Part shown: positions 24,485-44,133 of the stretch, piece after piece
How the letters are laid out: every line of letters starts with the position of its first letter
Numbering within the stretch: the stretch's first letter is position 1
Origin: Archaeoglobi archaeon JdFR-42
GTDB taxonomy: Archaea > Halobacteriota > Archaeoglobi > Archaeoglobales > JdFR-42
Assembly: GCA_002010305.1 (NCBI GenBank)
Contig: MTND01000022.1
Location: 174,128 to 225,935 of the forward strand
Direction of reading: 5' to 3'
DNA length: 51,808 bases
Position numbers and translations under genes: made by a program
The notes under the pieces: generated by a model
What the model saw: the letters and a program-made list of their open reading frames with translations, nothing else
Databases searched by the model: none
Told to the model about the DNA's origin: nothing

Positions 24485-25630
24485 ATGAGACTGCTTGAAT
24501 ATCAGGCTAAGGATTTTCTCTCAAAAGCTGGATTCACGGTTCCTGACGGATTTGTAGTTGAAAAAAATACAGTCGAAAGGGATCTGGGGGAATTATACTG
24601 TAAAATTTCATTTCCGGTAGTTGCAAAAGTTCAAATTCCGATGGGTAGGAGAGGATTGGCAGGGGGTGTTAGAATCATCTCTCATCAGGATGAGCTGGTA
24701 CCTGTGTTGAGAGATATGTTCAACAGGAAATATTATGGCTTTTACCCAGAGAAAATGTTGTTGGAAAATAAGATAGATTATAACCGGGAGTTATATCTGG
24801 GTGTTACTTATGACTCTGGTAGACGAGGTCCTGTTCTGATCTTTTCACTGGCTGGAGGAATCGAAGTAGAAAGGGGAGAAAGTAAAATTCTTGAGCTGAC
24901 CACCATGTATGGTAATTATCCTTATCGCATTAAAAATTTCTTCATAAAATGTGGTCTGAAGGGAAAGCAACTCATAACAGTAACAGAGCTGGCCAGAAAA
25001 ATGATCGATGTATTCTTTAACAATAATCTAACTCTCCTTGAGATCAACCCTTTCTTTGAAACCGAAAAGGGATACGTGGTAGGAGATGCCCGTATTGAGG
25101 TGGATGATGAAAGCAATCAGCTTGGTTATGAAAATGAATTCAAATCTGAATTTGAAAAGAGAGCAGAAAAGATAGATAGTCTGGATTACCGGGGAACGGC
25201 AAGATTGGTGGAATTTTCTGGAGATATAGGTCTCATAATTGGTGGAGGGGGTGCAAGTCTAACCATTTTCGATGCTGTGATTAGATACGGCGGTTCTCCA
25301 GCCAACTACTGTGAAGTTGGAGGCAATCCGACTGTGAAGAAAGTCACAGAAATCACAAAACTAATCCTATCCAGAAAAGTTAAAGGTCTTCTTGTTATTA
25401 CCAATGTATTAAACAATACCAGAGTAGACCTTATTGCCAGAGGGGTTATCAAAGGTATTCTGGAATGTGGCATGGATCCAAAAAAGGTTATTGGGATTTT
25501 CAGGGTTCCGGGAGCCTGGGAAGAAGAAGGAAAGAAAATTTTGGCTAAATATGGCATACCTTTCGCTGGAAGAGAAGTCTCTCTGGATGAAGCAGTGAAA
25601 AAGGGACTTGAACGTTTGAGGGGAGAATAA
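24485..25630 (+). CDS. Citryl-CoA synthetase-like ATP-grasp (beta) subunit, SucC superfamily
   Basis: The 381-residue protein has the SucC layout: an ATP-grasp domain (LLEYQAKDFL start, ELYLGVTYD near residue 101, EINPFFETEKG near 187) and a ligase domain from about residue 245. SucC-type enzymes carry NGAGLAM and a FGGIVRCD loop in the ligase domain. Here these positions read GGGGASL near residue 257 and NNTRVD near residue 306. GGGAS and the N-x-T loop are features of ATP-citrate lyase, where they contact citrate, and FRVPG corresponds to its citrate-binding arginine region. With the partner subunit it would make citryl-CoA from citrate, CoA and ATP. Plain succinate-CoA ligase remains possible but fits less well. 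It is followed one base later by the alpha subunit gene. Confidence 0.75.
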   Translation: MRLLEYQAKDFLSKAGFTVPDGFVVEKNTVERDLGELYCKISFPVVAKVQIPMGRRGLAGGVRIISHQDELVPVLRDMFNRKYYGFYPEKMLLENKIDYNRELYLGVTYDSGRRGPVLIFSLAGGIEVERGESKILELTTMYGNYPYRIKNFFIKCGLKGKQLITVTELARKMIDVFFNNNLTLLEINPFFETEKGYVVGDARIEVDDESNQLGYENEFKSEFEKRAEKIDSLDYRGTARLVEFSGDIGLIIGGGGASLTIFDAVIRYGGSPANYCEVGGNPTVKKVTEITKLILSRKVKGLLVITNVLNNTRVDLIARGVIKGILECGMDPKKVIGIFRVPGAWEEEGKKILAKYGIPFAGREVSLDEAVKKGLERLRGE

Positions 25631-25631
25631 A

Positions 25632-26516
25632 ATGCTGAGGGAATTGAATTCTCGTACAAAGGTGATTGTTCAGGGTATTACTGGAAGAGAAGCTATGGTC
25701 TTCACTAAGGATATGCTAGATTATGGAACCAATGTAGTGGGCGGAGTAACTCCTGGTAAAGGTGGAATGAAAGTCCATGGTCTTCCAGTGTATGATGGTG
25801 TAAATGAGATAGATGCTGAGGTCTCAGTTATATCAGTCCCCCCTGCCTTTGCAAAAGATGCTGTGATGGAAGCCATTGAGGCAGGAATTAAACTGGTAGT
25901 TCTGGTTACTGAGCGAATACCAAGGAAAGATGTGGCTGAAATACTGGAATTCAACAGGGAAATGGGGGAGGAAACGAAAATAGTGGGACCAAACTCTCTT
26001 GGAGTCATAAAGCCTGAGAGGGTTAAAGTAGGTATGATCGGAGGAAGTATTGAGGCTACCAGAAAGGCCTACACAAAGGGAAATGTGGCGATACTTTCCC
26101 GCAGTGGGGGCATGACAACAGAACTGGCCAGTTTGCTTACTCAACAAGATATAGGGCAGAGTATATGTGTGAGTATTGGAGGAGACCCCATGGTGGGAAC
26201 CACTTTTCAAGATGCAATCATAGAACTCGAAAAAGATAAAGACACGAAAGGTTTCCTTCTTTTCTGTGAGCCAGGTGGGTTACAGGAAGAATTACTGGCC
26301 GAATATATTATAGAGAGGGGCATATCAAAGCCAGTATGTGCCTTTATAGCTGGAAAATTTGTTGACTCCCTTCCGGGTAGACGATTTGGCCACGCTGGAG
26401 TTATAGTCCATGGGAAAAAGGGCTCGGTAGAGGAGAAAAAAAGATTATTTGAGCAGGCAGGAGTTATTGTTTGTGAAACCCTATCCAAGATTCCAGAAGT
26501 GGTGGAGGAATTCTGA
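25632..26516 (+). CDS. Citryl-CoA synthetase-like alpha subunit, SucD superfamily
   Basis: The 294-residue protein has the CoA-binding Rossmann domain (VIVQGITGREA start and GGVTPGKGG near residue 36) and the ligase domain carrying the phosphohistidine in RRFGHAGVIVHGKKG near residue 250. The phosphate-loop region reads LSRSGGMTTEL near residue 156. SucD proteins read SRSGTLTYE here, while ATP-citrate lyase reads SRSGGMSNEL, so the subunit is lyase-like. Glu in FCEPGG near residue 213 matches the conserved partner of the phosphohistidine. The start codon at 25632 is one base after the beta stop, and the ferredoxin start overlaps its stop (TGATG). Both subunits are surely co-expressed. Confidence 0.75.
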   Translation: MLRELNSRTKVIVQGITGREAMVFTKDMLDYGTNVVGGVTPGKGGMKVHGLPVYDGVNEIDAEVSVISVPPAFAKDAVMEAIEAGIKLVVLVTERIPRKDVAEILEFNREMGEETKIVGPNSLGVIKPERVKVGMIGGSIEATRKAYTKGNVAILSRSGGMTTELASLLTQQDIGQSICVSIGGDPMVGTTFQDAIIELEKDKDTKGFLLFCEPGGLQEELLAEYIIERGISKPVCAFIAGKFVDSLPGRRFGHAGVIVHGKKGSVEEKKRLFEQAGVIVCETLSKIPEVVEEF

Positions 26517-26716
26517 TGGGCCTGTTTATTTCAGTCTTGGTTGATAAAGGAAGATGTAACCTTTGCAAGAAATGTCAGATATGCCCGGTTGATATTTTTA
26601 AGTTCGACAATGACATCCAGGTTGTGGATGAAGATGAATGTCTTCTGTGCAATGCATGTATAGAGGCATGTGAAACTGGAGCCATTACCATACAAAAAGA
26701 ATATGGTAAATCGTAG
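26516..26716 (+). CDS. Small 2[4Fe-4S]-type ferredoxin with unusual first cluster spacing
   Basis: The 66-residue protein has two cysteine motifs. The second, CLLCNACIEAC near residues 42-52, has the normal Cx2Cx2Cx3C spacing. The first, CNLCKKCQICP near residues 14-24, has Cx2Cx2Cx2CP, one residue shorter than usual between the third and fourth cysteine. The codons are unambiguous, so either this cluster is distorted or the reading reflects a real variant. A ferredoxin gene tucked between ligase and lyase genes, with its start overlapping the alpha-subunit stop, suggests an electron carrier for a linked oxidoreductase not encoded here. The last codons lie inside the palindrome at 26706-26722. 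Confidence 0.85.
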   Translation: MGLFISVLVDKGRCNLCKKCQICPVDIFKFDNDIQVVDEDECLLCNACIEACETGAITIQKEYGKS

Positions 26717-26778
26717 ATTTACTGATTGTCAATAAAGTTGAACAATATGGTAAACTTCGTTTACCACTTGTCAACAAA
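26704..26778. repeat. Two-hairpin dispersed element, copy 2, with an extra hairpin
   Basis: The order is as follows: inverted repeat GTAAATC-GTA-GATTTAC (26706-26722), inverted repeat ATTGTCAA (26725-26732) with TTGAACAAT (26738-26746), then ATATGG. A second, perfect 8-bp palindrome TGGTAAAC-TTC-GTTTACCA (26748-26766) follows, then TTGTCAAC. The first half has the same arrangement as 10831-10882. It covers the ferredoxin stop codon and lies upstream of the citryl-CoA lyase gene, so it could be an operator, an attenuating RNA structure or a repeat. Confidence 0.6.
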
Positions 26779-26840
26779 GATTAGAATGGTTGAAGGCAGA
26801 GAAAAATGAAATTAATAGATAGTCAAACAGGAGGAATGTT

Positions 26841-27653
26841 ATGAGTCAGAAAAAGGATTCAAATCCAAATCACTCAGTGAATGGAGGAGCGAAATTCTGG
26901 AGAACATCTATTTCGAAAGTGGAACCCAATAAGATACTCATCAGAGGATGTCCCATCGAGAAACTTATGGAAAGGACTTTTGGAGATGTTGTATATCTTC
27001 TATTTACTGGACACTTGCCATCTGGTAATGAAGGGAAAATGATCGAAGCCATTCTAATCAGCGGATGTGATCACAGCCTTGCAGCTCCTTCAGCCAATGC
27101 TGTGAGATTTGTTGCATCATCAGGGGTCCCTCTTCAGGCCAGTGTTGCAGCAGGAATAATCTCTTTGGGAGATTATCACGGAGGCGCCATAGAACAAGCT
27201 GCAAAACTTTTCCAGGAGAGTCTCAGAAATTACCATGGAGATATCGATTCTTTGGCGATAAAAATTGTTGAAAGATATAAGGCCGAAAAAAAGAGGATCC
27301 TTGGATTTGGACATCCATATCATACAAAAGATCCTAGGACTAGTAAACTCATTCAGCTTGCGGAGAAATATGGTGTCAAAGGGAAACATGTGGAGCTGGC
27401 ACTTGCCATAGAAAAAGAGTTGGAAAAAGGAGGCAAATCCATCCCTTTAAATGTGGATGGGACAATCGGGGCTATTATCTCTGATCTGGGCATAGATTAT
27501 AGATATGGAAAGGGTTTTTACGTGATTGCCAGATCTGCAGGACTTACGGCCCATGCCTATGAACAGATGATGGATCGCCCTTTCAAAGCAGTCTCCCTTG
27601 AGGAAATAGAATATGTAGGTGAAGAAGATGGATGCAACGAAAACCCTGATTGA
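26841..27653 (+). CDS. Citryl-CoA lyase (short citrate-synthase-fold enzyme)
   Basis: The protein has 270 residues, far shorter than citrate synthase (about 380-430) and equal to the lyase part of ATP-citrate lyase. The catalytic histidines are visible in CDHSLA near residue 75 and FGHPYHTKDPR near residue 154. The catalytic aspartate sits in PLNVDGTIGAIISDLG near residues 199-214. NVDG-x-IG is the citryl-CoA lyase/ATP-citrate lyase form, where citrate synthases read NVDFYSG. GDYHGGAIEQAAKLF near residue 109 also parallels the lyase. The reaction is citryl-CoA to acetyl-CoA and oxaloacetate, or the reverse. A GGAGGA site lies 6 nt before the ATG. The next gene overlaps by 26 nt. Confidence 0.82.
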   Translation: MSQKKDSNPNHSVNGGAKFWRTSISKVEPNKILIRGCPIEKLMERTFGDVVYLLFTGHLPSGNEGKMIEAILISGCDHSLAAPSANAVRFVASSGVPLQASVAAGIISLGDYHGGAIEQAAKLFQESLRNYHGDIDSLAIKIVERYKAEKKRILGFGHPYHTKDPRTSKLIQLAEKYGVKGKHVELALAIEKELEKGGKSIPLNVDGTIGAIISDLGIDYRYGKGFYVIARSAGLTAHAYEQMMDRPFKAVSLEEIEYVGEEDGCNENPD

Positions 27654-28938
27654 ACTTGTTGCCAGAGTAGATTTCAGGCAACTACCAGGAGATGTAGTGG
27701 AAAAGACAAAAATAAGTATACTTGACTGGTTTATCTGCTGTTTAGCTGGATCAGCATTACCGCAGGCAAAAAAAGCTTTTGCAGCTCTTAGTGGCATGTC
27801 AAAAGGAGCAAGTACAATCTTCGGATTTCATGTTAAAGTATCTCCATACACAGCATCCCTGATAAATGGCATTTCAGGACATTCTCTTGAGATGGACGAC
27901 ATAGATAAAAAATCTGTGGTTCACCCAGGGGTCGTTGTTATTCCATCTGCCATTGCTATAGCGGAGGAGATGGAAGCTGAAGGTAGTAATTTAATCGAAA
28001 GTGTGGTGGCAGGATATGAAGTTGTTCTCAGACTTGGGGAATGTCTGGGAAGAGATCATTACACGAAATTCCACTCTACTGCTACGTGCGGAGTTTTTGG
28101 GTCTACTGCTGCCTCAGGTAAATTACTTGGCTTGAATGATGAGCAGATGGAATGGGCTTTCGGTAATGCAGGAAGTTTTGCCACTGGTTTATGGCAGTTT
28201 ATTGAAGGGGGAGGGGAAACCAAACCCCTTCATGCTGGAAAAGCATCATCAGAAGGTATACTCGTCTCTTTACTGGCTGCAAAAAGATATTCAGGTCCAA
28301 AAGGGATCATTGAGGGTGAAAAAGGGCTTTGCACTGTGATGTCCGAACATCCAGATTATGATACATTAAGAAAAGCCGGATTCAGGATTATGGATGTGAG
28401 TTTCAAATTGTATCCGTCCTGTAGACACACTCATGCAGCTATAGATGCAGCCTTAGCTTTACGTGAACAGGTTGATGAAATCCAATCAGTCGAAATATAT
28501 ACGTATAAAGAAGCGATCCAGATAGCAGGATTTAGGAATCCGTCCACCCCTTTTGAAGGAAAATTCAGCGTTCCATACTGTGTAGCCATCGCTTTACTAG
28601 ATGGGAATGTAAGGCCAGAACAATTTGATGTCAGTAACCTCGGAAAGACTGAGGTTAGAAAGATCCTTGCAAGAACAGTTTTGAAAGAGAAAAAAGAGTT
28701 TTCTATGGCTTTCCCAGACCGCTGGATGAGTGAAGTGGTGGTTAACAACACTCTTTCTAGGCTCATCGAATTCCCAAAAGGGGATCCCGAAAACCCAGCT
28801 AGGATAGAGGATCTATGGGTCAAGTATGAGGGAATGCTTAGATACGCAGGAGTTGATGCAGATCTCACAACTATTATTGACTTCTTCACGACCTTGGAAA
28901 AGAGAACCATGGATGAACTTGGAGAATTAGTGTATTAG
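27628..28938 (+). CDS. MmgE/PrpD-family hydro-lyase
   Basis: The 436-residue protein matches the MmgE/PrpD fold. The segments are LDWFICCLAGS near residue 29, GISGHSLEMDDIDK near residue 80 (the GxxxHxxDxDD-type active-site region), YEVVLRLGE near 130, KPLHAGKASSEG near 197 and KLYPSCRHTHAAIDAA near 258. Family members include 2-methylcitrate dehydratase, which also acts as a cofactor-free aconitase-like dehydratase, and cis-aconitate decarboxylase. The start ATG 27628 is preceded by AGGTGA and lies within the end of the citryl-CoA lyase gene, so the two are translated together. A citrate or methylcitrate dehydratase role is inferred from this position. Confidence 0.85.
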   Translation: MDATKTLIELVARVDFRQLPGDVVEKTKISILDWFICCLAGSALPQAKKAFAALSGMSKGASTIFGFHVKVSPYTASLINGISGHSLEMDDIDKKSVVHPGVVVIPSAIAIAEEMEAEGSNLIESVVAGYEVVLRLGECLGRDHYTKFHSTATCGVFGSTAASGKLLGLNDEQMEWAFGNAGSFATGLWQFIEGGGETKPLHAGKASSEGILVSLLAAKRYSGPKGIIEGEKGLCTVMSEHPDYDTLRKAGFRIMDVSFKLYPSCRHTHAAIDAALALREQVDEIQSVEIYTYKEAIQIAGFRNPSTPFEGKFSVPYCVAIALLDGNVRPEQFDVSNLGKTEVRKILARTVLKEKKEFSMAFPDRWMSEVVVNNTLSRLIEFPKGDPENPARIEDLWVKYEGMLRYAGVDADLTTIIDFFTTLEKRTMDELGELVY

Positions 28939-43182: not shown

Positions 43183-44133
43183 ATGATTAGTGTAAATGAA
43201 GGTGCTCTGGATATTGTAGAAGGGATGTTGGACTGGGAAGAAGAGCTTAAAATCAAGTCTTACACTCTTAAGAATGGCTCCACAGTAATAGACTGTGGTG
43301 TTAATGTAACGGGTAGTTTAGAGGCAGGAATTGCATTCACAGAGGTTTGTATGGGCGGTCTTGGTAATGTCTCTCTTTTTACAGACTACATAGAGGGGGC
43401 TCCTTTCACTTTTATCAATGTCTACACGGATCAACCATCCATATCTTGCCTTGGAGCCCAGAAAGCTGGATGGCAGATCAAAGTGGGCAAGTATTTTGCT
43501 ATGGGCTCTGGCCCAGCAAGGGCTCTGGCTCTGAAACCCAAGAAGACCTATGAGAAAATAGAGTATGAGGATGATTTTGATTCAGCAGTCATAGCTCTTG
43601 AATCCAGTCAGTTACCAGATGAAGAAGTTATGAGATCCATAGCCAGTGAGTGCGATGTGGAAGAAGAGAATGTTTATGCCCTTGTTGCACCCACTGCATC
43701 CATTGTTGGCTCAGTTCAGGTTTCAGGTAGAGTGGTGGAAACTGCCTTGTATAAACTCAGTGAACTGGGCTATGATGTTAAAAAAGTGGTTTCTGGAATA
43801 GGTAGGGCTCCTGTTGCTCCTGTGGTAAATGATGACGTTAGGGCCATGGGAATTACCAATGACAGCATAATTTACTATGGTTCAGTTGTGCTTACAGTGG
43901 AAGAATATTCAGAAGAAATAGAACAGCTCCCTTCCAGCAGATCCAGGGATTATGGAAGGCCCTTCTATGTGATATTCAAGGAAGCCAATTACGACTTTTA
44001 CAAAATCGATCCCTATATGTTTGCTCCTGCTCAGGTCCTTATTAATGATCTTAAAGAGGGAAAATCATACGTGATAGGAACTCTTAATTCCAGAGTGATT
44101 TTAGAATCTTATGGAGTTAACAAGAAGGGATGA
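43183..44133 (+). CDS. mch: Methenyl-tetrahydromethanopterin cyclohydrolase
   Basis: Mch interconverts formyl- and methenyl-tetrahydromethanopterin in methanogenesis, methane oxidation or the archaeal Wood-Ljungdahl pathway. The 316-residue sequence matches the family throughout: [18 protein letters not shown] near residue 46, the region [23 protein letters not shown] near 92, [19 protein letters not shown] near 166, and [19 protein letters not shown] near 206. A TATA-like TTTTATAC (43144-43151) and AAGGTGA before the ATG support the start. It overlaps the following hydrolase gene as ATGA. This is the main evidence for the organism's C1 metabolism. Confidence 0.95.

Follow-up and report, generated by a model that had tools for sequence, protein, structure and literature searches.

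Which acid is cleaved by the products of a compact gene set in the Archaeoglobi archaeon JdFR-42 that resembles an ATP-citrate lyase split into separate enzymes? The window, i.e. the whole 51,808-nucleotide stretch that was analysed (contig MTND01000022.1, positions 174,128 to 225,935), carries genes for the two subunits of a nucleoside diphosphate (NDP)-forming acyl-coenzyme A (CoA) synthetase and for a lyase with the citrate-synthase fold. A preliminary description took these for a pair that cleaves or makes citrate through citryl-CoA. The sequence comparisons reported here make it probable that the genes encode an ADP-forming citramalate-CoA ligase and a citrate-synthase-fold citramalyl-CoA lyase.

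Five genes (beta, alpha, ferredoxin, lyase and MmgE/PrpD) follow one another on one strand and thus likely form an operon. The three genes named in the preliminary description are all there, and the operon is larger than had been thought, by the ferredoxin and MmgE/PrpD genes. The features are:

24485 to 25630, plus strand: beta subunit, 381 amino acids, NDP-forming acyl-CoA synthetase; predicted citramalate-CoA ligase beta, from domains, tree and residues
25632 to 26516, plus strand: alpha subunit, 294 amino acids, with SRSGGMTTE and the phospho-His motif GHAG; predicted citramalate-CoA ligase alpha
26516 to 26716, plus strand: small ferredoxin, 66 amino acids, overlapping the alpha stop codon; conserved cassette member
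26697 to 26779, no strand: intergenic repeat pair, spacing 42-44 bp, between the ferredoxin and lyase genes
26841 to 27653, plus strand: citrate-synthase-fold acyl-CoA lyase, 270 amino acids; predicted citramalyl-CoA lyase
27628 to 28938, plus strand: MmgE/PrpD protein, 436 amino acids, with an alternative GTG start at 27619; overlaps the end of the lyase gene

The motifs and coordinates given earlier are present in the translations, namely IGGGGASLT and NNTRVD in beta, SRSGGMTTEL in alpha and NVDGTIG in the 270-amino-acid protein, and the contrasting motifs attributed to SucC and citrate synthase do occur in E. coli SucC and GltA. Pfam domains are ATP-grasp_2 and Citrate_bind in beta, CoA_binding and Ligase_CoA in alpha, and Citrate_synt in the lyase. 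In the PDB, the lyase is closest to Hydrogenobacter thermophilus Ccl (6hxp, 1.2e-49) and beta to CcsA from the same organism (6hxq_B, 5.4e-42), with E. coli SucC a close second for beta (4.9e-40). Beta and alpha both score below the NCBIfam cut-offs for SucC (207 vs 376) and SucD (303 vs 353), and the lyase passes the NCBIfam 'citryl-CoA lyase' model (288 bits vs a cut-off of 245). AlphaFold models were obtained for the lyase and for beta, with predicted local distance difference test (pLDDT) scores of 90 and 89, respectively. The first structural match of the lyase model is 6hxp, and the beta model matches succinyl-CoA synthetase about as well as 6hxq_B. Such modelling had been suggested as a way to inspect the citrate pocket; as predictions, the models confirm both folds without discriminating substrates.

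In the beta tree, six rows (the window, the same-family genome G209, L023, L027 and two Mnemosynella) form a clade with support 100/99. SucC and malate-CoA ligase (Mtk) form a separate clade of 21 rows, also at 100/99, and a further 100/99 branch divides the window clade from H. thermophilus CcsA and the synthetases of DPANN archaea and the candidate phyla radiation (CPR). The alpha tree repeats this pattern, with a window clade of seven rows (100/99) apart from SucD/Mtk (100/99) and from the citrate type, and in the lyase tree a window clade of 11 rows (97/87) stands apart from the Aquificota Ccl clade. Because rooting was at the midpoint or on citrate synthase, no order between the groups is claimed. 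Membership of beta and alpha in SucCD/Mtk is ruled out by the separate 100/99 clades in both trees. The assignment to a ligase-plus-lyase pair of the split ATP-citrate-lyase type therefore stands; the trees that were called for place both subunits outside succinate- and malate-CoA ligases as anticipated, and also outside the citryl-CoA synthetase clade, which was not. In each of the three trees these organisms share a clade, and these common clades favour citramalate.

The pocket residues also favour citramalate over citrate. The beta pocket of the citrate enzymes from human (ACLY), Chlorobium, Methanosaeta and H. thermophilus comprises N-x-T and R-R-x-G-P (human N346, T348, R378 and R379), and each of these four, the citrate enzymes of known structure that were compared, has the Arg379 equivalent. 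Within the window beta, Asn310 and Thr312 correspond to Asn346 and Thr348, and Arg340 to Arg378, while Val341 stands at Arg379. Of 18 citrate-type betas, 17 have arginine at this last position, whereas the five from the window clade have V, V, S, G and G. The loop itself is kept, as NNT in the window and as N/S-N-T/S across its clade. Citramalate has one carboxylate fewer than citrate, and Arg379 is the residue that presumably grips a citrate carboxylate; its loss with retention of the N-x-T loop is one ground for preferring citramalate. Arg379 is listed among the residues lining an inhibitor pocket that neighbours the citrate site (PMC9504748). The two-subunit ligase fold with its phospho-His GHAG and SRSGGM active-site motifs is present in beta and alpha.

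The window lyase has a short citrate-synthase fold in which catalytic His113, His158, Asp206, Arg166 and Arg231 are kept. GH-P replaces GH-R/K and PFKAV replaces P-x-R-R, with loss of one basic residue, and GH-P is found in 10 of 11 window-clade lyases. CitF (citrate lyase alpha) or aconitase lies nearby at 19 of 37 GH-R loci vs 0 of 20 GH-P loci, these being raw counts of loci uncorrected for relatedness, and this difference in neighbours again favours citramalate. Glutamate mutase GlmE, methylaspartate ammonia-lyase or MmgE/PrpD is near 3 of the 20 GH-P loci. Citrate as the substrate, as first proposed, does not hold up well against the separate clades outside CcsA and Aquificota Ccl, the valine at ACLY Arg379 and the loss of basic pocket residues in the lyase.

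Relatives were sought in a scan of 85,000 species genomes, which yielded 80 loci. The lyase is rare, occurring in 3 of 295 genomes of the host phylum. A beta-alpha-ferredoxin-lyase cassette is also present in Aerophobetes (L023) and in an Actinomycetes metagenome-assembled genome (L027); no further cassette was found on searching the phylum of L023. Two Candidatus Mnemosynella genomes have the order lyase-beta-alpha-ferredoxin, and the deltaproteobacterium L073 has a partial cassette of lyase, alpha and ferredoxin. The L023 and L027/L171 cassettes, two of those nearest to that of the window, adjoin glutamate mutase GlmS/GlmE in clusters that also contain methylaspartate ammonia-lyase. L171 has the MutL reactivase as well, and its cassette and glutamate mutase gene sets are divergently transcribed. 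Among 26 lyase-bearing genomes, full-length GlmE is found only in the two with these cassettes, linked to the cassette in both, and one other has an 88-position fragment. Glutamate mutase and methylaspartate ammonia-lyase are makers of mesaconate, which is one hydration from citramalate, and their linkage to the cassette thus favours citramalate as the substrate. In the methylaspartate pathway, mesaconate is converted to (S)-citramalate and then to pyruvate and acetate via citramalate lyase (PMC4682846). By analogy, the cassette would be the obvious candidate for the citramalate cleavage step in L023 and L027/L171.

A second type of operon in Archaeoglobales bears on the MmgE/PrpD gene. The MmgE/PrpD family is found in 9 of 59 Archaeoglobi genomes, and at five loci of the same taxonomic order it is part of a parallel operon encoding a SucCD-like ligase beta, a ferredoxin-like protein, ligase alpha, a CitE/RipC-type lyase, MmgE/PrpD, DUF1847, an unknown protein and a fumarate-reductase-like flavoprotein:

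L158, 5124 to 12621: parallel operon
L159, 4932 to 12930: parallel operon
L160, 1968 to 9998: parallel operon
L161, 4132 to 11847: parallel operon
L165, 860 to 10607: parallel operon

The frame for the ferredoxin-like protein is listed in L159, L160 and L161; in L158 and L165 an antisense frame hides it. The parallel operon, a candidate for methylsuccinate/mesaconate degradation, resembles the bacterial itaconate/methylsuccinate cluster, which includes MmgE/PrpD and citramalyl-CoA lyase (PMC12290011), and this resemblance favours citramalate for the window operon as well. The likeness is one of parallel logic and not of orthology, because the parallel-operon ligase belongs to another clade of the beta tree. 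By analogy, a comparable lyase step would be carried out by a TIM-barrel enzyme in the parallel operon and by a citrate-synthase fold in the window.

For the window MmgE/PrpD protein the best PDB match is iminodisuccinate epimerase (5e-39), followed by Bacillus IRG1 and cis-aconitate decarboxylase; the match to 2-methylcitrate dehydratase is weak (1.7e-10). Active-site residues have been proposed for the methylsuccinate isomerase MmgE/PrpD of P. aeruginosa (PMC12290011). These His, Tyr, His, Lys and Lys residues appear to be present in the window protein, as mapped by motif without direct alignment, and are shared by several family activities; several are missing from E. coli PrpD.

Taken together, the observed gene content, gene order, clades and residues lead by inference to a pathway in which beta and alpha would activate citramalate via a phospho-histidine and citramalyl-phosphate to citramalyl-CoA, with release of ADP, and the lyase would cleave citramalyl-CoA in a retro-Claisen reaction to acetyl-CoA and pyruvate. 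The small ferredoxin, a constant partner, possibly accepts electrons when pyruvate is oxidised. MmgE/PrpD probably provides an upstream C5 dicarboxylate step, e.g. as methylsuccinate isomerase or in a mesaconate/citramalate step. The host genome (2.15 Mb, 99.6% complete, with the window on a 226-kb contig) also encodes a genuine citrate synthase and a class I fumarase, and it has two other SucCD pairs, one adjoining a 2-oxoacid oxidoreductase. The tetrahydromethanopterin C1 pathway ascribed to the organism is supported by Mch, encoded at 43183 to 44133 of the window. Methylsuccinate and mesaconate are candidate sources of citramalate in the archaeon. Glutamate fermentation as such a source is ruled out, since GlmE and methylaspartate ammonia-lyase are absent from the genome; GlmE above the cut-off occurs in 0 of 59 genomes of the class Archaeoglobi.

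Several observations weigh against citramalate cleavage. A search of the host genome found neither glutamate mutase nor methylaspartate ammonia-lyase, the GlmE linkage of relatives is known from two metagenome genomes, and MmgE/PrpD has no single reaction assigned to it in the pathway. Loss of Arg379 by itself is compatible with citrate, as the citrate-type L078 carries Ser at this position, and SucC carries Leu. GH-P is also seen in distant lyases without an assigned substrate, and the inner order of the lyase clade is weakly supported.

The main rival, unlikely but still to be reckoned with, is two-enzyme citrate cleavage by Ccs and Ccl as in Hydrogenobacter, by which citrate would pass through citryl-CoA to acetyl-CoA and oxaloacetate while MmgE/PrpD acted on a tricarboxylate. 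The H. thermophilus enzymes are the best sequence matches of beta and lyase, 6hxp is the fold match of the lyase model, the subunits retain the citrate-type NNTR loop and SRSGGM, and the lyase exceeds the citryl-CoA lyase cut-off. Set against these are the missing Arg379, GH-P and PFKAV in the lyase, the position of all three proteins outside the characterised citrate clades, the 0 of 20 GH-P loci with adjoining aconitase or CitF, and the glutamate mutase linkage of the relatives. It is less likely still that the operon handles another hydroxy or branched dicarboxylate (itaconate, malate or 2-alkylmalate) or makes citramalate from acetyl-CoA and pyruvate. Such reactions can generally run both ways, and a host devoid of the glutamate route may use a different substrate from its bacterial relatives; however, breakdown of C5 dicarboxylates would suit both the parallel operon of the archaea and the linkage seen in the bacteria, and the genome already has its two other SucCD pairs.

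The overlap of a PrpD-family gene with the lyase gene would suit 2-methylcitrate cleavage to propionyl-CoA and oxaloacetate with MmgE/PrpD as 2-methylcitrate dehydratase. This is nevertheless very improbable, given that MmgE/PrpD is nearer to iminodisuccinate epimerase than to that dehydratase and keeps residues missing in E. coli PrpD, and that no methylisocitrate-lyase superfamily protein was found in the host genome. The 2-methylcitrate cycle as a whole is rejected on these grounds. Least credible of all is an ordinary succinate-CoA or malate-CoA ligase lying by chance beside a citrate-synthase-like protein: the SucC/SucD subfamily models do match both subunits below cut-off, but both trees place beta and alpha apart from SucC/SucD/Mtk, cassette membership is conserved across phyla, and it is a SucCD pair elsewhere in the genome that adjoins the 2-oxoacid oxidoreductase.

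Citramalate cleavage of the kind favoured here would share parts with several known systems. Like H. thermophilus CcsAB (6hxq) and Ccl (6hxp), the window has a two-subunit NDP-forming ligase and a separate citrate-synthase-fold lyase, with the phospho-His motif, the NNTR loop and the catalytic lyase residues; unlike them, it falls in separate clades, has lost the ACLY Arg379 equivalent, reads GH-P/PFKAV where H. thermophilus Ccl reads GHR/SKR, and adds ferredoxin and MmgE/PrpD. Citramalate lyase CitDEF of Clostridium tetanomorphum is a citrate-lyase-like complex, whereas the window has an ATP-dependent CoA ligase and a citrate-synthase fold, and the archaeon is without the upstream enzymes of the methylaspartate pathway of glutamate fermentation. 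The itaconate/methylsuccinate cluster comprises a CoA transferase, a hydratase, a CitE-like citramalyl-CoA lyase and an MmgE/PrpD methylsuccinate isomerase (PMC12290011). Conversion of citramalyl-CoA to acetyl-CoA and pyruvate and an MmgE/PrpD partner are common to both (as predicted for the window), with a CoA ligase in place of the transferase and a citrate-synthase fold in place of the CitE TIM barrel. MtkAB with malyl-CoA lyase follows the same ligase-plus-lyase logic on a hydroxy-dicarboxylate, but Mtk lies inside the SucCD clade and malyl-CoA lyase is CitE-like.

The route from citramalate to acetyl-CoA and pyruvate is without described enzymes of this kind; a full-text literature search for named citramalate-CoA ligases returned a single paper, which to judge from its title and abstract does not concern such an enzyme. 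It appears somewhat more probable than otherwise that an undescribed ATP-driven citramalate cleavage is used by some bacteria to ferment glutamate and by Archaeoglobi in a branched C5-dicarboxylate pathway, and that some of the proteins entered in databases as 'citryl-CoA lyase' are not citrate enzymes. Homologues of Ccs/Ccl and ATP-citrate lyase serve surveys as markers of the reductive tricarboxylic acid (TCA) cycle and autotrophy. If the citramalate assignment is true, these markers would mislead in Archaeoglobi, Aerophobetes and others, the Arg379 position and GH-P signatures would help to correct the assignments, and the last step of the methylaspartate pathway would exist in a CoA-ligase version.

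Additional information can be garnered from the surrounding sequence and from the relatives. One of the intergenic repeats contains a perfect palindrome, GGTAAAC-TTC-GTTTACC, at 26749-26765, which occurs once within the window; the repeat pair and palindrome are possibly an operator or an RNA hairpin. In G209 the beta gene and the lyase-MmgE/PrpD pair lie at two different contig ends, and because this genome carries the same genes the operon is no assembly artefact. A third SucCD-like pair of the host (L022 10115-12107) has the unusual pocket loop NLDLAISSAA, not NIFGGITRCD, and groups with a pair in G209. The best plasmid matches are distant lyases of <40% identity.

The cassette ferredoxin has lost cysteines of the first cluster and kept the second cluster in Mnemosynella and L073 (L015 8308-8508, L139 2712-2912, L073 7791-7997). 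Mnemosynella also has a second window-clade lyase (L016 5861-10780, L025 1902-6813), downstream of two flavin adenine dinucleotide (FAD)-linked 2-hydroxyacid dehydrogenase-like genes and split iron-sulfur subunits. A citrate-synthase-fold lyase follows CitF in L044 (3976-8544), L032 (3973-7230) and about 12 further loci from Thermoplasmata or Hodarchaeum, frequently together with aconitase-like and HD-domain proteins; this looks like a hybrid citrate lyase with Ccl in place of CitE. A third ligase clade, reading ASQEQ and not NNTR or ANFT, accompanies a GH-R lyase in L055 (3468-8203), L064, L050, L059 and L069, with an HD protein and aconitase in some. Citrate-type split citryl-CoA synthetase/lyase operons are found in DPANN archaea, Patescibacteria and one Heimdallarchaeote (L054, L056, L060, L065, L080, L085, L088, L096 and others).

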